Source: Candidatus Kuenenia hertensis (lineage in GTDB: Bacteria; Planctomycetota; Brocadiia; Brocadiales; Brocadiaceae). From it: a stretch of DNA of 64,000 nt. The DNA is taken from assembly GCA_021646465.1 (NCBI GenBank), contig SOET01000013.1, forward strand, positions 1-64,000. Direction: 5' to 3'. The translations under genes were made by a program, and so were the position numbers. The notes under the pieces are model-generated. The model was given only the letters and a program-made list of their open reading frames with translations. It had not been told where the DNA came from and did no database searches. Of the stretch, positions 6,767-43,798 are shown in pieces (position 1 is the stretch's first letter; the number at the start of each line of letters is the position of its first letter).

Positions 6767-9760
6767 TTATGCCTGCTTCTCATTAAACCGTTGATATATT
6801 TTCCTGGTCAACCAGTCCTTCACATCATTTTTAAATTCAGAATTTTCCATGATCTTATCAAATATTTCCTGATTAGAATCCATCCGGTCAATAAGTGTTT
6901 GGATAAATATCTCTTCAAAGGCGTACTTGAAATTTTCAATCGGATTGTTTTGCGCCCTTATCTTCAAATCTTCATTCTCAAATAACGCTTGTTCAATCTG
7001 CTCAAAGTATAAGCGGTCAGCTTCAGTAAAGTCAGTGCCAAATTTTTCATTCAATAAGTAAATAATGTTCGAGAGTTTATCCTTTTCATCTTTTGGTTTG
7101 CTGATACCAGCCTCTGTTGTTGGGTCAAGGCTATGCTCTCCCTGAACCTGCAAAACCAGATCGCCTTCGGCTACTTTTTGTAAGCGATAATATTCAAGCG
7201 CTACTTCATTATCCAGTTTCAATCGCTCCGTATAATCTGCCTTGGGCAGTTTCGTCAGCAGAAATCGGCCGTACGAATACAATTTTTCAAGCTCAACGTC
7301 CTGAAAGGGCATGATTTGCGAAAGAAATGAATACAACCTGACAAAAGCAGTCAAAGACTTTTTGAACTCATCCTGCGGCTCTTCCTGTAAGGCATTAAAC
7401 CGGTCGACTGCCGGATCAATAAATGCGTACAACCTGCCCTGATCTTTCACCGATGAATGTCCCGGCTTGTAGAATACTCTGGCAAATGCATCCACTTCAG
7501 ACTGGTAATAGACATTCGCGGCATCGGTCTTACCCTTCAAATCATATAAATGATTCGGGTCAGTGGTTTCTGTCATTGCTGTCAGTTCATAGTATGGCTG
7601 GAATGAATCAATGATTGTTTGTCTATCATTGGCAAAATCGAGAACAAAGGTGTCTTCCTTGCCGGGATAAGTCCTGTTGAGTCGTGAAAGCGTTTGCACG
7701 GCTTTTACTCCTGACAGCTTTTTGTCAACATACATGGTGTGCAATAAAGGCTGGTCAAAGCCATACTGATATTTATCGGCCACCAGCAAGACCTGATAAT
7801 CATTCGTTGCAAACTTTTCTGGCAATTCCTTCTCGCCAAACTTGTTCAACTGTGCTTCGGTTACTCCTTCCGGATAGAGGTCGTCAATCACTGTCCCGGA
7901 AAAAGCTACCAGAAGTTTTATGCTGGTGTAGCCCTTTTCTTTAATATAATCCTTAAACTCAAGGTAATACCTCAGGGCATGTTTTCTTGATGAAGTTACA
8001 ACCATTGCCTTTGCCTTGCCTCCGATTTTTTTCATCGTGATCTGTCTGAAATGCTCAACCATCACTTCGGTCTTCTGCGCAAGGTTTGTGGGATGGAGCG
8101 TTGCAAAACGGCCAATTGCCTTTACTGCTTTTCTTTTATTCAGTTCCGGGTCGTCCTCAATGGTTTTGCAAAATTTGTAATAAGTTTCATACGTAGTGTA
8201 ATTCTTCAGCACATCAAGGATAAATCCCTCCTCAATGGCTTGCCGCATAGAATAAAGATGGAATGGCAGGGATTTGCCTTCGTCATTTTTGAAGCCAAAC
8301 ACCTCTATTGTTTTTGCCTTTGGCGTTGCAGTGAAGGCAAAAAGGCTTATATTTTTTTGAGGACCGCGCTTACGTATCGTTTCACGGATGTAATCATCCT
8401 CATCTTCCACACTGCTCTCAATTTCAGTTTCAATCTTTTCTGATTCTTCGAGCGAGACATTCTTTCCAACGAGTGCTTCAGTCATCTTTCTGCTTGCTTC
8501 ACCGCCCTGGCTGCTATGCGCCTCATCAATGATTACCGCGTAGTTGCGCCCGGAATTTTCTCCCAAATGTTTAAGCGCATAGGGAAACTTCTGTAATGTA
8601 GTGATGATAATGCCCGTTCCTGATGTAATCGCTTCAGCCAGTTGCCTGGAATCCTCATCAATGCGCTGAACCACGCCCGTTTTGTGCTCAAACTGATAGA
8701 TGGTATTTTGCAACTGCTGGTCAAGCACATTTCGGTCGGTAATTACAATTATTGAGTCAAATACCTTCTTGTCCTGCACATTGTATAAACTACTCAGCCG
8801 GTAGGCGAGCCATGCAATTGAATTGCTCTTGCCGCTGCCTGCTGAATGCTGAATCAAATAATTCCTGCCGGGGCCGCTGATTTTTGCGTCGGTGGTAAGT
8901 TTGCGAACCGCATCAAGCTGATGATAGCGAGGGAATAGCAATGATTCTTTTGTATATTTCTTTCCCTCAACCGTAAAGTCTTCTTTTTGCAAATGCATAT
9001 ACCTTCCGATAATTTCCAGCCAACCGTCCACATTCAGTGTTTCTTCCCAGAAATAGGCAGAACGGTAAGTGGAATAGTCCTTTGCCGGAGGGTTGCCTGC
9101 TCCATTCTTAAAACCCTTGTTAAATGGTGAGAATCGTGTGCCGCCTGACTCAAGCCTGGTAGTGAAATACACTTCATCTGGGTCGAGGGTAAAATGCACC
9201 AAGGCTCTCTTTTTGAATTGAAAAAGCAGTTCCCGCGGGTCACGGCTGGTGCGGTATTGCTCCATCGCTTCACTTACGGATTGACCGGTGAAATGGTTTT
9301 TTAATTCAATAGTCGCCACAGGCAAACCGTTTAAAGAAAGCAGCAGGTCTATGCTCTTGTTGTTTTTGGTAGAAAAATGAACCTGTCTGGTTACAGAGAG
9401 TTTATTGAGTTTATAAAGTTCAAGCGTTTCAGGATTCAGTTTGCTATCGGGTTTGAAATAAGCCAGTTTGAATTTAACACCGCTGTCGGTAATACCATGA
9501 CGGATTACATCCAGCATGCCCCTTAAATCCAGTTCTTTAAAGAGGCGTTGAATGAATTTGTTCTCGGTGTCATCTTTATAATAAGACTTCAACTTGTCCC
9601 ACTCTTTAGGCTGAGACGTCTGAATAAATGAAAGCACTGCCTTTTTATCAAATGCCAGATCTCGGCTGAAATCTGAATCATTACCTAAATGCCAACCATT
9701 GGTGGTTAAATGCTCAATGATAGCTGATTCAAAAATGGATTCTGTGTGAATAGAAGTCAT
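6767..9760 (-). CDS. hsdR: Type I restriction enzyme R subunit (motor and nuclease)
   Basis: 997 residues. An N-terminal PD-(D/E)xK nuclease domain shows SIDLLLSLNGLPVATIELKN (about 136-155), with the acidic residue and ELK. The superfamily 2 helicase motor follows: Walker A SAGSGKS (306-312), DEAH box IIDEAHSS (about 410-417), FTATPK (motif III), and a second RecA-like domain with FDQPLLHTMYV and QTLSRLNRT (motif VI). In the HsdR2M2S complex it translocates DNA by ATP hydrolysis and cuts unmethylated DNA at a distance. It is the last gene of the block hsdM, nuclease, hsdS, nuclease, hsdR. All motifs look functional. Confidence 0.95.
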   Translation of the reverse strand: MTSIHTESIFESAIIEHLTTNGWHLGNDSDFSRDLAFDKKAVLSFIQTSQPKEWDKLKSYYKDDTENKFIQRLFKELDLRGMLDVIRHGITDSGVKFKLAYFKPDSKLNPETLELYKLNKLSVTRQVHFSTKNNKSIDLLLSLNGLPVATIELKNHFTGQSVSEAMEQYRTSRDPRELLFQFKKRALVHFTLDPDEVYFTTRLESGGTRFSPFNKGFKNGAGNPPAKDYSTYRSAYFWEETLNVDGWLEIIGRYMHLQKEDFTVEGKKYTKESLLFPRYHQLDAVRKLTTDAKISGPGRNYLIQHSAGSGKSNSIAWLAYRLSSLYNVQDKKVFDSIIVITDRNVLDQQLQNTIYQFEHKTGVVQRIDEDSRQLAEAITSGTGIIITTLQKFPYALKHLGENSGRNYAVIIDEAHSSQGGEASRKMTEALVGKNVSLEESEKIETEIESSVEDEDDYIRETIRKRGPQKNISLFAFTATPKAKTIEVFGFKNDEGKSLPFHLYSMRQAIEEGFILDVLKNYTTYETYYKFCKTIEDDPELNKRKAVKAIGRFATLHPTNLAQKTEVMVEHFRQITMKKIGGKAKAMVVTSSRKHALRYYLEFKDYIKEKGYTSIKLLVAFSGTVIDDLYPEGVTEAQLNKFGEKELPEKFATNDYQVLLVADKYQYGFDQPLLHTMYVDKKLSGVKAVQTLSRLNRTYPGKEDTFVLDFANDRQTIIDSFQPYYELTAMTETTDPNHLYDLKGKTDAANVYYQSEVDAFARVFYKPGHSSVKDQGRLYAFIDPAVDRFNALQEEPQDEFKKSLTAFVRLYSFLSQIMPFQDVELEKLYSYGRFLLTKLPKADYTERLKLDNEVALEYYRLQKVAEGDLVLQVQGEHSLDPTTEAGISKPKDEKDKLSNIIYLLNEKFGTDFTEADRLYFEQIEQALFENEDLKIRAQNNPIENFKYAFEEIFIQTLIDRMDSNQEIFDKIMENSEFKNDVKDWLTRKIYQRFNEKQA

Positions 9761-10009
9761 GTTTGTCTGAAGTTTATCTAATTATTTTTAATTACCTTGC
9801 ATAGTAATAGTATTAGAAGCATAACCACTTGTCCTTATTTGGAACATCAAATTTTCCCTCTAATAATTTATTAGAATCCATTGGGGCTTTTTATCACTCC
9901 CGACATTTTTGGCTGAAAAGGATGTGTAGGACATACATAATTAAACAAGACTCTATAAATTACCATCAACCCCGTGTTCTGGCAGAGACACTAAGCCTGG
10001 ACGTCTTTC
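9761..10009. other. Spacer between hsdR and DUF559 element A
   Basis: About 250 bp with no credible gene. The part from about 9916 (AGGATGTGTAGGACATAC) and especially from 9953 (TATAAATTACCATCAACCCC) is the left flank of a direct repeat that recurs at about 12183-12275 in front of the second DUF559 copy. A plus-strand frame at 9829-10260 is the complement of the nuclease gene. Confidence 0.5.
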
Positions 10010-10052
10010 CATGTCCCCCCACGGGCTATACCACGAATTTGTCCCCCGCTGG

Positions 10053-10499
10053 CTATGTTATGAATCTGTCCCCCGCTGGCGGGGGTGCAGGGGGTGGACC
10101 GGATATCCCAATCATGTCAACTACCCGCACAATCCTCTGTATAACACCGCTCATGTTCTTCAAAACATCTTCGTCAGTAAACCTGATTATGCTAAACCCG
10201 GCGCTTTCAAGTGCACGGGTCTTCCGCTTATCTTTTTCACTTGTTTCGCCGTCTAAATGAGTTATCCCGTCAACCTCAATGATCAGCTTCAATGCGTTAC
10301 AGAGGAAATCTGCGACGGATTGGCGCGCGGGTCTTTGCCTCCTGAACTGATAGCCCTTCACCTGCCCGGCTCGCAGTGCATATTTCCAGAGGCAAGCCTC
10401 TGCTTTCGTCATTTTCTTACGCAGGCTGTTTGCAAGCGGCTGTAATCGTTTGTTGTCGCCGTAATTATTGGTTCCGTCAGCTTTTGGTTTTTTTCGCAT
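10053..10499 (-). CDS. DUF559 endonuclease-like protein, copy A
   Basis: 148 residues of the DUF559 family, a PD-(D/E)xK nuclease fold related to Vsr mismatch endonuclease. RKKMTKAEACLWKYALRAGQ (about 27-46) and FRRQRPA precede the catalytic strand pair ADFLC-x4-LKLIIEVDG (about 63-77), with D and E-x-D. IIRFTDEDVLKN follows. The family's natural role is not well established. The last 15 or so residues, rich in proline, come from the inverted repeat and are probably not part of the fold. About 91 percent identical to copy B by eye over 133 residues. ATG at 10499. Confidence 0.8.
   Translation of the reverse strand: MRKKPKADGTNNYGDNKRLQPLANSLRKKMTKAEACLWKYALRAGQVKGYQFRRQRPARQSVADFLCNALKLIIEVDGITHLDGETSEKDKRKTRALESAGFSIIRFTDEDVLKNMSGVIQRIVRVVDMIGISGPPPAPPPAGDRFIT
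10068..10098 (+). repeat. Left inner inverted repeat of DUF559 element A
   Basis: 31 bp, GTCCCCCGCTGGCGGGGG followed by TGCAGGGGGTGGA. It is the exact reverse complement of 10517-10547. The first 18 bases fold as a hairpin on their own (7-bp stem, 2-nt loop). A similar sequence forms the left end of copy B at 12306-12335. Confidence 0.9.
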
Positions 10500-10516
10500 G
10501 ATTTCCGAGTTCCTTT

Positions 10517-10547
10517 TCCACCCCCTGCACCCCCGCCAGCGGGGGAC
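10517..10547 (+). repeat. Right inner inverted repeat of DUF559 element A
   Basis: 31 bp, TCCACCCCCTGCACCCCCG followed by CCAGCGGGGGAC, exact reverse complement of 10068-10098. It lies just upstream of the nuclease start, so transcription entering the gene must cross the hairpin. The same end recurs with one change at 12754-12784. Confidence 0.9.
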
Positions 10548-10575
10548 AAGTTCATGACAGCCCTTCGGGCTTGGT

Positions 10576-11889
10576 TTATACCACCTTTATTTTTCCCGTC
10601 ACCACTTCGCTGATTAATGCCGTGCGGTATTCCTGCAACAGCTCAATTTCCTTTTCGATTTTGGAAACGGTGGCGTCAATTTTTTGAGTTTCGGTTTCAA
10701 TATGCCACACAATGCTTTGTTGTTCTTTAAATGTAGGTAAGAGTAGAAAAGCCTCTCCTAATTCATCTTTATTCAAGTGCGGTTGAGCAGCTCTTAATCT
10801 GTGCAAGTAAAGCTGATTGATTAAAACATAATTACTAAGAAGGCAATAGGAAATAAAGATTGGATCGGCAGTGATTACACGAACCACCATGTCATATCCA
10901 GTAATCGCTCCTTCGTATTTCTTTGGGATTATAGCTGAATCGCCAGTATAGGCACCGCTTCTCACAACAATAATGTCATTTTCTTTTAGAACAGGATCTC
11001 TGTCGTATGGTATGTCATCAGGGTCGATATAAATTAAATCGTTATCAACGATTTTCCCCCTTTCAACATTAGTCGCTCTTATTAATGGCAATCCATCGGT
11101 TTTTTGTCTTGGTGGTTGTCCTAATCCATATTTTACTTCCGTTACATACTTCAACTTCTTCACTTCCCAATGTGCCGGGATATCGACGAGCCATTCTATG
11201 CCGCTGGGTTTGAGTTTGGCTTTGGGGTTAATACCTTTCGTTACCGCATGATTAATAATCGCCGTCCGTTCTTCTTTTAGCAGTTCAATCAGTTTTTGCT
11301 TTTTTTCAATGAGCGTATCTATCTGAGCGGTCTTTTCGTCAAGGTAATTGGCAATGGCGGTTTGTTCGGCTTCGGGTGGAGTTCCTGCTACAAAATTTTC
11401 CACAAATGATGCGGGCACTCTTTTTTGACCAGCAGATCCAGTCATAAACGCCTCGCCAGCTTTCATAAATGGATGGCTTTTTGTAATGTAGAATAAGAAT
11501 TTCGGTGAAACAGATTTATTCGCTCTCAGCACATGAAATTCAGTTGATCCATAGCCAAAATCAGTTTCTAAATCATTAAGGAAAGCTCCTTTGCCATTTT
11601 CAAAACAAGGAGTAATTTTAGCCACAATAACATCGTTTCTCTCAAAAGATGTAAACCCTGAACTCACCTCATCGATACGCCTTCTTAGCTCTTGATTAAT
11701 TTTACCTTCCTCAGAAACCTTTTCCATTGGGAGAAAAACGACTTCATCGTCAGATGCATTAGCGAATTGACCAGGTGGCTTTGAAGGATTAATATTTGCT
11801 ATATATTTTAGCTTTTTGCTTTCCCAATGCTCCGGGATCTCTCCAATCCACTCAACCCCTGAAGGCTTATATTTCTCGTATCGTTTCAT
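10576..11889 (-). CDS. hsdS: Type I restriction-modification specificity subunit
   Basis: About 437 residues with the two-fold HsdS layout. Each half starts with the same phrase, KPSGVEWIGEIPEHWESKKL near residue 8 and KPSGIEWLVDIPAHWEVKKL near 228. Each holds a target recognition domain and ends in a coiled-coil spacer (EQTAIANYLDEKTAQIDTLI and EQQSIVWHIETETQKIDATV). It sets the bipartite target sequence for methylation by HsdM and restriction by HsdR. ATG at 11889 is preferred to GTG at 11907, because MKRYEKYKPSG is the usual beginning. It is bracketed by two almost identical DUF559 elements in direct orientation. Confidence 0.93.
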   Translation of the reverse strand: MKRYEKYKPSGVEWIGEIPEHWESKKLKYIANINPSKPPGQFANASDDEVVFLPMEKVSEEGKINQELRRRIDEVSSGFTSFERNDVIVAKITPCFENGKGAFLNDLETDFGYGSTEFHVLRANKSVSPKFLFYITKSHPFMKAGEAFMTGSAGQKRVPASFVENFVAGTPPEAEQTAIANYLDEKTAQIDTLIEKKQKLIELLKEERTAIINHAVTKGINPKAKLKPSGIEWLVDIPAHWEVKKLKYVTEVKYGLGQPPRQKTDGLPLIRATNVERGKIVDNDLIYIDPDDIPYDRDPVLKENDIIVVRSGAYTGDSAIIPKKYEGAITGYDMVVRVITADPIFISYCLLSNYVLINQLYLHRLRAAQPHLNKDELGEAFLLLPTFKEQQSIVWHIETETQKIDATVSKIEKEIELLQEYRTALISEVVTGKIKVV

Positions 11890-11932
11890 CCGTGCTTTAT
11901 TCCCCACAAGTGAACAAAATATTAATTATATA

Positions 11933-12088
11933 ATCCCGAAGGGATGTCATTATTATAGCATATCGTTATGCAATTATTGTTAACCCCGGAGGGGGTGACA
12001 TGGTCTCATTGTTTTCGCGATATTTCACCCCTACGGGGTTGAATCTTGTGGTATGTATTTCTCTATAATCATATCATCCCTTCGGGAT
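11933..12088. repeat. Nested palindromic element in the hsdS upstream gap
   Basis: Four short palindromes are arranged symmetrically: ATCCCGAAGGGAT (11933-11945), AACCCCGGAGGGGGT (11982-11996), CACCCCTACGGGGTT (12026-12040) and ATCCCTTCGGGAT (12076-12088). The outer pair are exact reverse complements of each other and the inner pair nearly so, so the 156 bp form one imperfect inverted repeat. ATTATAG occurs inside both arms. There is no coding potential. It is probably a MITE- or REP-like dispersed element. Confidence 0.6.
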
Positions 12089-12149
12089 TTTCCCGTCTGC
12101 CAGTTTTCCCTATTGTCTCTTAAGTATTCTGAGATATATCCTCCATCAG

Positions 12150-12166
12150 TTTCGCTGAATAGTTAC
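12150..12166 (-). repeat. Solo end of the 43.7-kb MITE-like repeat
   Basis: TTTCGCTGAATAGTTAC here is identical to 17 of 18 bases of the right terminal repeat of the element at 43656-43798. A GC-rich stretch follows (CCCCACTACTAAAAAGGAGG). Only one end is recognisable, so this is a partial or diverged copy. Confidence 0.55.
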
Positions 12167-12275
12167 TATTCCCCACTACTAAAAAGGAGGGGTAGGGCAT
12201 ACGTGTTATGTTAAGAATTTATAAATTACCATCAACCCCTTGTTCTGGTAAAGACGCTAAGCCTGGACGTCTTTC

Positions 12276-12814
12276 CATGTCCCCCGTTGGCTATGTTATG
12301 AATCTGTCCCCCGCTGGCGGGGGTTAGGGGGTGGACCGGACTGCCCAATCATGTCAACTACCTGCACAATCTTCTGTATAACACCGCTCATATTCTTCAA
12401 TACATCTTCGTCAGTAAACCTGATTATGGTAAACCCGGCGCTTTCAAGTGCACGGGTCTTACGCTTATCTTTTTCACTTGTTTCTACGTCTAAATGAGTT
12501 ATCCCGTCAACCTCAATGATCAGCTTCAATTCCTTACAGAGGAAGTCTGCGATATATTGCAGCGCGGGCCTTTGCCTTCTAAATTGATAGCCCTTAATCT
12601 GTCCGGCTCGCAGTGCATATTTCCAGAGGCAAGCCTCTGCTTTCGTCATTTTCTTACGCAGGCTGTTTGCAAGCGGCTGTAATCGTTTGTTGTAGCCGTA
12701 ATTATTGGTTCCGTCAGCTTTTGGTTTTTTTCGCATGATTTCCGCGTTCCTTTTCCACCCCCTGCACCCCCGACAGCGGGGGACAAGTTCATGGTATAGC
12801 CACCGGGGGACATG
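12276..12814 (-). mobile_element. DUF559 element, copy B
   Basis: 539 bp with imperfect terminal inverted repeats of about 60 bp (12276-12335 and 12754-12814). Both run from CATGTCCCCCG through GGCTAT, TGTCCCCCGCTG and GGGGGTGGA, with roughly nine mismatches and one indel. Inside lies one DUF559 gene. The same unit occurs as copy A on the other side of hsdS in the same orientation, and homology continues about 90 bp further left in both. This looks like two insertions or a duplication of a small nuclease-bearing mobile unit. Confidence 0.6.
12296..12736 (-). CDS. DUF559 endonuclease-like protein, copy B
   Basis: 146 residues, the paralogue of the copy at 10053-10499, with about 12 substitutions over the first 133 residues. 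The same catalytic strand pair is present (IADFLC-x4-LKLIIEVDG). The C-terminus (GPPPNPRQRGTDS) is again read from the element's left inverted repeat and differs from copy A because the reading frame shifts through the GC-rich end. Most changes are conservative, suggesting both copies were under selection or the duplication is recent. Located between hsdM and hsdS. Confidence 0.8.
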   Translation of the reverse strand: MRKKPKADGTNNYGYNKRLQPLANSLRKKMTKAEACLWKYALRAGQIKGYQFRRQRPALQYIADFLCKELKLIIEVDGITHLDVETSEKDKRKTRALESAGFTIIRFTDEDVLKNMSGVIQKIVQVVDMIGQSGPPPNPRQRGTDS

Positions 12815-12933
12815 AAGGATACAACAGTAACAAGAATTTTATGGTGATTATTGAATCCTTACCTTAAGACGTATGCCCTTTATTAAGGGGGAATTGCACT
12901 GAACCACTTCACCCCTTATCCTCATGGGGAATA

Positions 12934-14685
12934 TCAGACAACTATCTGTTTAATCATTCCCTCGGTTTCTTTTTCCAATGCCAGTATATCCTTTCTTATT
13001 TCTTCCAAACTGCGTAGCGGCTTATATTGATAAAAATACTTTGTGAAATTTATCTCATATCCCACTTTTGTTTTACCGTGGTCAATCCATGCATCTGGCA
13101 CATGCGGCAAGACTTCCCGCCTAAAGTATTCCTCAACATCCTCTTTTAGCGGTACATTTTCAAAATCACGAAGGTCTGCATCGGGCAAAGGATTGCCCTT
13201 TCGATCTTTTTCAATATTGCCTTTCGCATCACGTTTAGGGCGCTCAACGGCTATCCGCCTGTAACCAAAATCATCATTGTCAAAAATCTTGCAGTATGGG
13301 CCATCCTTGAACTCACCGTAGATTTCGGTAATGCGCTTAATGGCCTCCTCGTGTATCTCTTTCCTCTTATTGCCGAGACTGCGGAGCATCTTACTGTAAA
13401 AGGGATTGTTTTTGTCTTCCTTATCAGCGCCAGTTGCATTAATAAGCTGCACCTTGCCTTTGCGTTTCTTGCTCTTTCGGTCGGTAACGATCCAAATATA
13501 TGTGGAAATGCCCGTGTTGTAGAACAACTGGTCAGGCAAGGCGATTATGGCTTCAAGCATATCATTTTCAATAATCCATTTGCGTATTTCGCTGGGACCG
13601 CTTCCGGCGCCGCCGCTGAACAAAGGCGAGCCGTTAAAAACTATTCCAATGCGGCTGCCACCAGCACTACGCTTCATCTTGGAAATCATATGTTGCAAAA
13701 AGAGTAAAGACCCGTCACTGATGGGTGGCAACCCGGCGCCAAACCGACCTGCAAAGCCTTTGTTGACTGCTTCATCTTTAATCTGTTTCTCAACCTTTTT
13801 CCAGTCCACACCAAAAGGCGGATTGCTCAACATGTAGTCAAAAGTTTCGCCTTCCAGGCCGTCTTGCGTAAAGGTGTTGCCGAATTTGATGTTAGAAGGA
13901 TTCTGACCCTTAATGAGCATATCTGATTTACAGATAGCATAAGATTCAGGATTGATTTCCTGCCCGAACACTTCCAGCCTTGCGTCAGGATTCAGTTCAT
14001 GAACATATTCTTCGGCTACGGACAGCATGCCGCCTGTCCCGCCTGCAGGATCATACAATGTTTTTACAATACCTTGTTTCCGGAGAATTGCCTTATCGTT
14101 CACAAACAGCAGATTTACCATAAGGCGTATCACCTCACGTGGCGTGAAGTGTTCTCCGGCAGTCTCGTTGGAAAGCTCTGCAAACTTTCGGATGAGTTCC
14201 TCGAATATATACCCCATCTGGATAGAGTCCACATCTTTGAAAACGCCGTTGCTTTCGGCAAATCGCTTCACAATCATATAGAGCAGGTCATACTCATCCA
14301 GCTTTCGTATCTGATCTTCAAAGCTGAAATATTCAATTATTTCCCGCACGCTTATGGAAAACCCATTAATGTAATTGCGGAGGTTTGCGGCAATGTTGTT
14401 GTGGTCCCTGGCCAGTTCAGCAAAGTCGAACTTGCTCCGATTGTGAAATTTTACTTTGGCTACGTTATTGAGAATGGGTTCGAGTACTTCAGGCTTTTTA
14501 TCTTTATGTTTTTGATATGCAGTAAGCACAGCTTTCCTGGTTGGCTGTAAAACAGAGTCCAACCGCCGTAAAACTGTAAACGGCAAAATTACCTTGCCAT
14601 AATCGGCCTGCTTGTAATGGCCTCTTAACAGGTCTGCGATCGACCAGATGAAGTTTGCCTTTTCTCTGAAGTTATTTGTCGCCAT
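12934..14685 (-). CDS. hsdM: Type I restriction-modification DNA methyltransferase subunit
   Basis: 583 residues, N6-adenine methyltransferase of a type I system. An N-terminal helical HsdM domain (about 8-130) precedes the catalytic domain. GEHFTPREVIRLMV (about 178-191) is the family hallmark, DPAGGTGGML (212-221) is the SAM-binding motif I and SNPPFG (287-292) is catalytic motif IV. It pairs with HsdS for methylation and with HsdR for cleavage. First gene of the restriction-modification block, starting 88 bp after the HypC-HydE gene. All motifs are intact. Confidence 0.95.
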   Translation of the reverse strand: MATNNFREKANFIWSIADLLRGHYKQADYGKVILPFTVLRRLDSVLQPTRKAVLTAYQKHKDKKPEVLEPILNNVAKVKFHNRSKFDFAELARDHNNIAANLRNYINGFSISVREIIEYFSFEDQIRKLDEYDLLYMIVKRFAESNGVFKDVDSIQMGYIFEELIRKFAELSNETAGEHFTPREVIRLMVNLLFVNDKAILRKQGIVKTLYDPAGGTGGMLSVAEEYVHELNPDARLEVFGQEINPESYAICKSDMLIKGQNPSNIKFGNTFTQDGLEGETFDYMLSNPPFGVDWKKVEKQIKDEAVNKGFAGRFGAGLPPISDGSLLFLQHMISKMKRSAGGSRIGIVFNGSPLFSGGAGSGPSEIRKWIIENDMLEAIIALPDQLFYNTGISTYIWIVTDRKSKKRKGKVQLINATGADKEDKNNPFYSKMLRSLGNKRKEIHEEAIKRITEIYGEFKDGPYCKIFDNDDFGYRRIAVERPKRDAKGNIEKDRKGNPLPDADLRDFENVPLKEDVEEYFRREVLPHVPDAWIDHGKTKVGYEINFTKYFYQYKPLRSLEEIRKDILALEKETEGMIKQIVV

Positions 14686-43655: not shown

Positions 43656-43798
43656 GTAATTATTCAGCGAAATAATCATCGCCTGAATCCCCCTTAAAAA
43701 AGGGGGACTCAGGGGGTTGTAATAAAACATTAAATTTAAGACAACCCCCTAACCCCCTTTAATAAAGGGGAATATGGTAAATTTCGCTGAATAGTTAC
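43656..43798. mobile_element. MITE-like element with 18-bp terminal inverted repeats
   Basis: 143 bp bounded by GTAATTATTCAGCGAAAT (43656-43673) and ATTTCGCTGAATAGTTAC (43781-43798), which pair at 17 of 18 positions. Inside lies a second imperfect inverted repeat with GGGGGTTGT (to 43720) and ACAACCCCCTAACCCCC (from 43741) around a 20-base spacer. Non-coding. One end recurs at 12150-12166. No transposase is present, so it would need one from elsewhere. Confidence 0.65.

Follow-up and report, generated by a model that had tools for sequence, protein, structure and literature searches.

The question raised by this locus is why two genes of DUF559, a common nuclease family of unknown function, each lie between GC-rich inverted palindromes inside a type I restriction operon, and what the palindromes are to the nuclease. 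The operon runs on the minus strand of a contig from a Brocadiaceae anammox planctomycete, with Candidatus Brocadia assemblies as its closest named relatives, and the window referred to throughout is the whole 64,000-nucleotide (nt) stretch analysed, to which all window coordinates belong. A sequence-only reading had recognised the two genes and their inverted-repeat ends, both confirmed here (Pfam DUF559, PF04480, E 9e-30 for gene A and 7e-33 for gene B, over 109 positions), and had proposed that nuclease and palindrome form one mobile unit. The comparisons described below indicate that a DUF559 gene with its cognate palindromes is very probably a mobile unit, and make it reasonably likely that copies A and B belong to a widely distributed class of mobile elements of very small size in which a stand-alone DUF559 gene is framed by clade-specific palindromes resembling BoxC or triplex motifs and is driven by the nuclease.

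The limits of the two units follow from copies elsewhere that carry the same palindrome type, T1. In other Brocadiaceae, T1 units located at unrelated loci (L173, L112, L143, L127, L123) align to the window only between the outer palindrome edges, and because homology between these unlinked copies ends at 10067-10548 and 12305-12785, the minus-strand units A and B measure 482 and 481 bp, respectively, rather than the approximately 540 bp estimated earlier. The homology stops at 10066/10067 and 10546-10552 for unit A and, in other genomes, at 12304/12305 and 12783-12789 for unit B. Gene A (10053-10499, minus strand, 148 aa) and gene B (12296-12736, minus strand, 146 aa) encode DUF559 nucleases of the Vsr/EDxHD-like PD-(D/E)XK kind. 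The palindrome at the 3' end of gene A (10067-10098, plus strand), TGTCCCCCGCTGGCGGGGG-TGC-AGGGGG-TGGA, has a perfect 32-nt inverted match upstream of the gene (10517-10548, minus strand), extending to 43 nt at 93% when the flanks are included, and the palindrome at the 3' end of gene B (12305-12335, plus strand), TGTCCCCCGCTGGCGGGGGTTAGGGGGTGGA, pairs with an upstream copy (12754-12785, minus strand) within an inverted repeat of 56 nt at 82%. The earlier reading had given 31 bp (perfect) and about 60 bp (imperfect) for the two repeats. In both copies the hairpin lies outermost and the G-run tail is directed toward the gene. The 3'-end palindrome alone is coding, supplying the final codons and a proline-rich C-terminus (PPPAPPPAGD in A, PPPNPRQRGT in B), whereas the second palindrome lies approximately 18 bp upstream of the ATG, so that the earlier description of the unit ends as coding holds for one end of each unit. 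Proline-rich tails, attributed earlier to DUF559 proteins of other genomes, are seen in the copies from Brocadiales and, elsewhere, in several fused copies.

The palindromes themselves have a layout equal to that of E. coli BoxC. In the window they are 31-32 nt long and consist of a hairpin, 2-3 nt and a G-run (AGGGGGTGGA); the CCCCCGC-TG-GCGGGGG hairpin noted earlier is present in the unit ends, and the third block had been overlooked. As this G-run sits 2-3 nt past the hairpin, the palindrome can be described as BoxC- or triplex-motif-like, with a hairpin, a short spacer and a third G-rich strand repeated across the genome: the pattern has dozens of matches in genome G000 and the reversed pattern has none. 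Across loci the arms share a hairpin, a few nt, a third G-run and a type-specific tail, by which at least seven types can be distinguished, T1 being TGTCCCCCGCTGGCGGGGG-TGC-AGGGGG-TGGA, with inverted copies framing each DUF559 gene. The hairpin energies are unremarkable against shuffled sequences, the folding tool modelling hairpins and no triplexes.

The association of gene and palindrome extends well beyond the window. Each of 85 stand-alone DUF559 loci from the source genome and its relatives in family and order was scored by the strongest inverted match linking its 350-bp flanks, with far flanks of the same loci and cross-genome flank pairs as controls. The inverted-repeat threshold is reached by 72 of the 85 Brocadiales loci compared with 2 of 72 far-flank controls (Fisher p ~2e-28), an arrangement that is therefore not due to chance, and random placement of the repeats relative to the genes, which would have counted against the earlier reading, is not what is found. 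Cross-genome flank pairs pass in 17% of cases, many of them with a shared palindrome type. Among Bacteroidota, 21 of 55 DUF559 loci pass, against 2.1% of mismatched pairs. On visual inspection, similar palindromes adjoin the DUF559 genes of Deinococcus, Sphingomonas (between sufB and sufC), Azospirillum, Sinorhizobium, Neisseria, cyanobacteria and E. coli; in only some of these does an extended match link the two flanks.

Within the unit the only profile matches are to the DUF559, MTES_1575 and DUF2726 nuclease profiles, and no transposase of the type known from classical insertion sequences is present. Among 139 copies, four of which carry stops, conservation reaches at least 99% in the columns of catalytic type (E, Q, D, E, D, G, H and D), and the ratio of nonsynonymous to synonymous substitution rates (dN/dS) between A and B is 0.23; from this conservation and this ratio, the nuclease is judged to be under constraint. 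Profile comparison also matches I-Bth0305I, a homing nuclease of a mobile intron (PDB 3r3p, E 5e-6), and the structure 3hrl (E 2e-25). Structure prediction was poor (mean predicted local distance difference test score, pLDDT, of 51 for eight sequences) and was not used.

The evolution of the nuclease and of the palindromes can be compared directly. Mapped on a tree of 77 DUF559 domains, the seven types of palindrome require 7 changes, with a possible minimum of 6 and a mean of 49.5 in shuffled data, and none of 200 shuffles is as low; at the level of sequence, this shows that the nucleases and their palindrome types have evolved together. Clade-by-clade pairing of this kind, and recurrence in many phyla, would not be expected if DUF559 were a captured passenger between palindromes moved by another enzyme, such as a RAYT-like Y1 transposase acting in trans (RAYT, tyrosine transposase associated with repetitive extragenic palindromes, REPs), or by hairpin replication slippage. 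Y1 transposases are found in 31 of 33 related genomes searched, in line with this alternative; yet none of 33 Y1 loci of the same order carries any of the seven palindrome types on both sides, compared with 50 of 84 DUF559 loci, and 12 of the 33 have distinct inverted repeats of their own. No gene besides DUF559 recurred regularly between the palindromes, although no systematic search was made. A passenger role is thus considered rather unlikely, and further evidence in its favour comes from the copy numbers and from E. coli, described below.

The sites occupied by the units bear on two other explanations. Several long DUF559-matching frames are conserved proteins interrupted in frame by the unit, whose palindromes are translated: MetH, LeuRS, HsdR, HsdM and HsdS, these hosts being named from sequence reading rather than by profile search. 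In one Bacteroidota family of 57 genomes, MetH is uninterrupted in most members and carries a DUF559 unit at one linker in four, so that occupied and empty sites, whose comparison had been suggested earlier, can be set side by side; in one further genome of that family (L296), MetH keeps two in-frame palindrome remnants without a nuclease. The repeated use of this one linker in four genomes, the kinship to I-Bth0305I and a DUF559 domain in intein position all fit homing alone, by which the nuclease would cut fixed empty sites and spread by gene conversion like intron or intein endonucleases, leaving the palindromes as by-products of break repair. The case in intein position (L050, G030:C58:63656-63961) has the domain, on sequence reading, at the endonuclease position of an apparent intein in a DNA methyltransferase-like frame. 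Homing alone is nevertheless improbable: T1 units lie at unrelated loci with flanks that are not shared, nuclease-less palindrome units are dispersed too, and the single MetH site may merely reflect insertion tolerance or shared descent. More improbable still is a housekeeping or defence nuclease, a Vsr-like repair enzyme or restriction helper acting on hairpin DNA, with the palindromes as regulatory or target sites and mobility incidental. Such a role would suit the many copies in or beside restriction genes and the Caulobacter DUF559 protein VsrA, which triggers a DNA damage response upon loss of a solitary methylase (PMC12907096). Against it, presence, number and site vary even among related genomes, insertions that keep the frame of MetH and LeuRS, together with empty sites, are characteristic of a mobile element, and regulation leaves matching palindromes at both unit ends unexplained.

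A 524-aa DNA methyltransferase-like protein (L359, G024:C1:4045120-4046910) has T1 palindromes in frame near both ends and no nuclease. A candidate empty site in Sinorhizobium meliloti was rejected, since L262 (CP090106) proved against L206 to be a deletion derivative in which the first ~38 DUF559 codons run directly into the downstream palindrome. Insertion into the centre of another palindrome seemed plausible on visual inspection but gained no support from a permutation test (p 0.14 over the inner 8 nt), and the p of 0.04 over 60 nt is attributable to L345, a locus with fully inverted copies as flanks that is probably an assembly artefact.

Forms without the nuclease also exist. The T1 palindrome is found alone, a point that the earlier reading had suggested checking, and also in head-to-head dimers with a related type and in pairs ~120-430 bp apart. 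Two T1-bounded derivatives (L348 and L346) have kept both ends of the nuclease unit and lost the middle, and therefore represent a route by which non-autonomous copies arise, in the way internally deleted copies with the same ends generate miniature inverted-repeat transposable elements. The sequences show that the palindromes are the unit ends, that the units occupy unrelated sites, and that they decay to nuclease-less derivatives, dimers and lone palindromes.

A connection to E. coli is suggested by the shared layout. E. coli has been known to carry repeats of the BoxC type since the 1990s, to our knowledge without an enzyme that explains their spread. Its DUF559 gene is ycjD, situated between sapF and fabI and followed downstream by BoxC-like palindromes, and BoxC is present in 5369 of 5426 E. 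coli genomes at 1 to 27 copies per genome. Holder et al. (2015) described the motif, as BoxC, the PIT element or the intrastrand triplex motif TM, in more than 260 genomes, in inverted pairs and at sites highly variable between strains, found no mobility gene near it, read it as a source of instability and did not mention DUF559 (PMC4666352). YcjD and other DUF559 proteins have been discussed as a putative nuclease or mismatch repair enzyme (PMC1189080), and no paper tying DUF559 to palindromes or BoxC was found in the open-access literature, subscription papers and preprints being outside the scope. Low BoxC counts seem to fall in E. coli lacking ycjD, perhaps reflecting one lineage, and O157 strains break the rule. 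At cpxA-yiiM a BoxC pair is present in ~154 of 5375 genomes and REP-type sequence is found there in the others examined. At pstB-pstA a lone BoxC lies within a 92-bp insertion that other strains are without and that has an 8-bp direct repeat on either side.

Several of these data, and others on copy number, weigh against the favoured explanation, in which the nuclease drives the unit. The pstB-pstA site is the only clean E. coli insertion with flanking direct repeats and concerns a lone BoxC, not a DUF559 unit. The sites gabT-gabP, ypfG-tkt and cpxA-yiiM were rejected as clean empty sites because the other allele holds REP-type sequence and thus indicates replacement, which supports movement of the palindromes by another enzyme, and yjdP-phnP was rejected because its alleles look like deletions. 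No recent jump of DUF559 between near-identical strains was caught. Flanking repeats score below the threshold in 13 of 85 Brocadiales loci and in most Bacteroidota copies (34 of 55), so that recognisable repeats do not accompany all DUF559 genes. The orientation of the tail varies between palindrome types, and hence a single cleavage geometry need not fit all types. Palindromes are also abundant where the cognate nuclease is lacking, again in favour of a passenger role for DUF559: the single-contig genome G001, of the same genus, has 59 exact T1 hairpins and only one short, weak DUF559 match, and T6 palindromes without a cognate nuclease number 37 in G000 and 74 in G039. A strict dependence of palindrome number on the nuclease is not found for T1, whose counts in Brocadiaceae do not differ with and without a T1 nuclease (p 0.15), and T2 and T6 counts are weakly tied to theirs (p 0.012 and 0.028, uncorrected for phylogeny). 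Loss of the nuclease after spread would explain plentiful palindromes without cognate DUF559, and so would another mobiliser.

On this balance, the earlier proposal stands as far as nuclease and palindrome being one mobile unit, which unrelated loci, empty sites, cognate types, lone palindromes and nuclease-less derivatives support, and is less certain for the nuclease as mobility enzyme and for a REP/RAYT-like or homing mode; palindrome number is only weakly tied to the nuclease. We lean slightly toward the nuclease as the mobiliser of the unit. If it is, the Vsr/EDxHD-type nuclease would recognise the hairpin or triplex form of its own palindrome, probably while this is single-stranded during replication, and would cut at the palindrome foot, after which host repair or replication would place a copy of the unit, or of a palindrome by itself, at a new site, an overall mode akin to REP/RAYT with an unrelated enzyme. 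The chances appear even for the broader proposition that DUF559 nucleases are the missing mobility enzymes of BoxC/triplex-motif palindromes throughout bacteria, with a Vsr-like PD-(D/E)XK enzyme that replaces known transposases, reads the hairpin or triplex and inserts in frame in essential genes.

The host operon may be subject to rearrangement of its own. From 14685 down to 6767 it comprises hsdM (12934-14685, minus strand; Pfam N6_Mtase, HsdM_N), DUF559 copy B, hsdS (10576-11907, minus strand; Pfam Methylase_S), DUF559 copy A and hsdR (6767-9760, minus strand; Pfam HSDR_N, SWI2_SNF2, T1R_D3-like), with hsdS flanked by units A and B as if by direct repeats. A relative from another genus (L150, G022:C1:324290-326620) has an hsd operon 98-99.6% identical to window 9115-13676 from which hsdS and one DUF559 unit are absent, as if recombination between direct copies had removed them, and hsdS therefore appears to be part of a removable cassette. 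Unit B is surrounded by a larger host repeat, with a left part (ACGTGTTA..ACCATCAACCCC, 12179-12304) that has a counterpart beside A at 9913-10066 and a right part at 12786-12879 supported by inverted repeat evidence; the repeat comprises a direct match (9913-10019 and 12179-12285, 83%) and an inverted match (12194-12244 and 12829-12879, 76%). As its flank also adjoins other T1 units, the wider repeat may have moved too, for those T1 units, A and B included, that lie within it. Elsewhere, L056 and L070 (G000 C39 and C31) share one larger inverted repeat that holds a 431-bp palindrome-bounded unit at one place and a lone palindrome at the other. Between hsdS and unit B, window 11932-12089 contains an inverted pair, AATCCCGAAGGGATGT..CTATAATCATATCATCCCTTCGGGATT, that is probably a RAYT-type REP pair adjoining the DUF559 unit, as it nearly matches the repeat flanking the Y1 transposase of the relative L377. 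Three Y1 transposase loci of G000 (L080, L081, L082) are flanked by three further palindrome families, two of which begin GTAGG. At window 43689-43770, two inverted T3-type palindromes (CCCCCTTAAAAAAGGGGG..AGGGG) lie ~80 bp apart, a gap too small for a nuclease gene.

The pairing of DUF559 with BoxC, if true, would explain both the orphan spread of BoxC and the function of DUF559, would suggest a second, independently evolved counterpart of REP/RAYT, and gives a directly testable prediction in E. coli for YcjD and BoxC; the units also show how small nuclease cassettes can come to lie in frame within essential proteins. Among known systems, BoxC/PIT/TM is similar in having a palindrome of three blocks (hairpin arms, a spacer of 2-4 nt and a third strand rich in G), inverted pairs, variable presence and copies adjoining ycjD, and differs in that its authors saw no mobility gene nearby. 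YcjD and VsrA belong to the same family, with the Vsr-related PD-(D/E)XK fold, but have not previously been treated as part of a palindrome-bounded mobile unit. The EDxHD (Vsr-like) homing endonucleases such as I-Bth0305I share sequence kinship and a self-propagating nuclease gene, whereas the DUF559 unit lies outside an intron and has its own palindromic ends, unrelated sites and nuclease-less derivatives. Rickettsia palindromic elements (reviewed in PMC10969869) likewise occur in frame within protein-coding genes, but are ~150 bp long without a nuclease gene, whereas here a full nuclease unit or palindromes alone are in frame. A parallel in working exists with REP/RAYT (REPtrons) and TIRYT/TIRtrons (Di Nocera et al. 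2013, PMC3733652), in which a small nuclease or transposase gene lies between palindromes in inverted orientation, which are likewise found singly and in dimers, and enzyme groups have their own repeat families. The DUF559 units are nevertheless not members of these systems, since the sole gene in the unit encodes a PD-(D/E)XK nuclease rather than a Y1 HUH transposase (TnpA_REP), the ends (TGTCCCCC and AGGGGGTGGA) have no GTAG tag at the hairpin foot, and different palindromes accompany the Y1 genes of this order.

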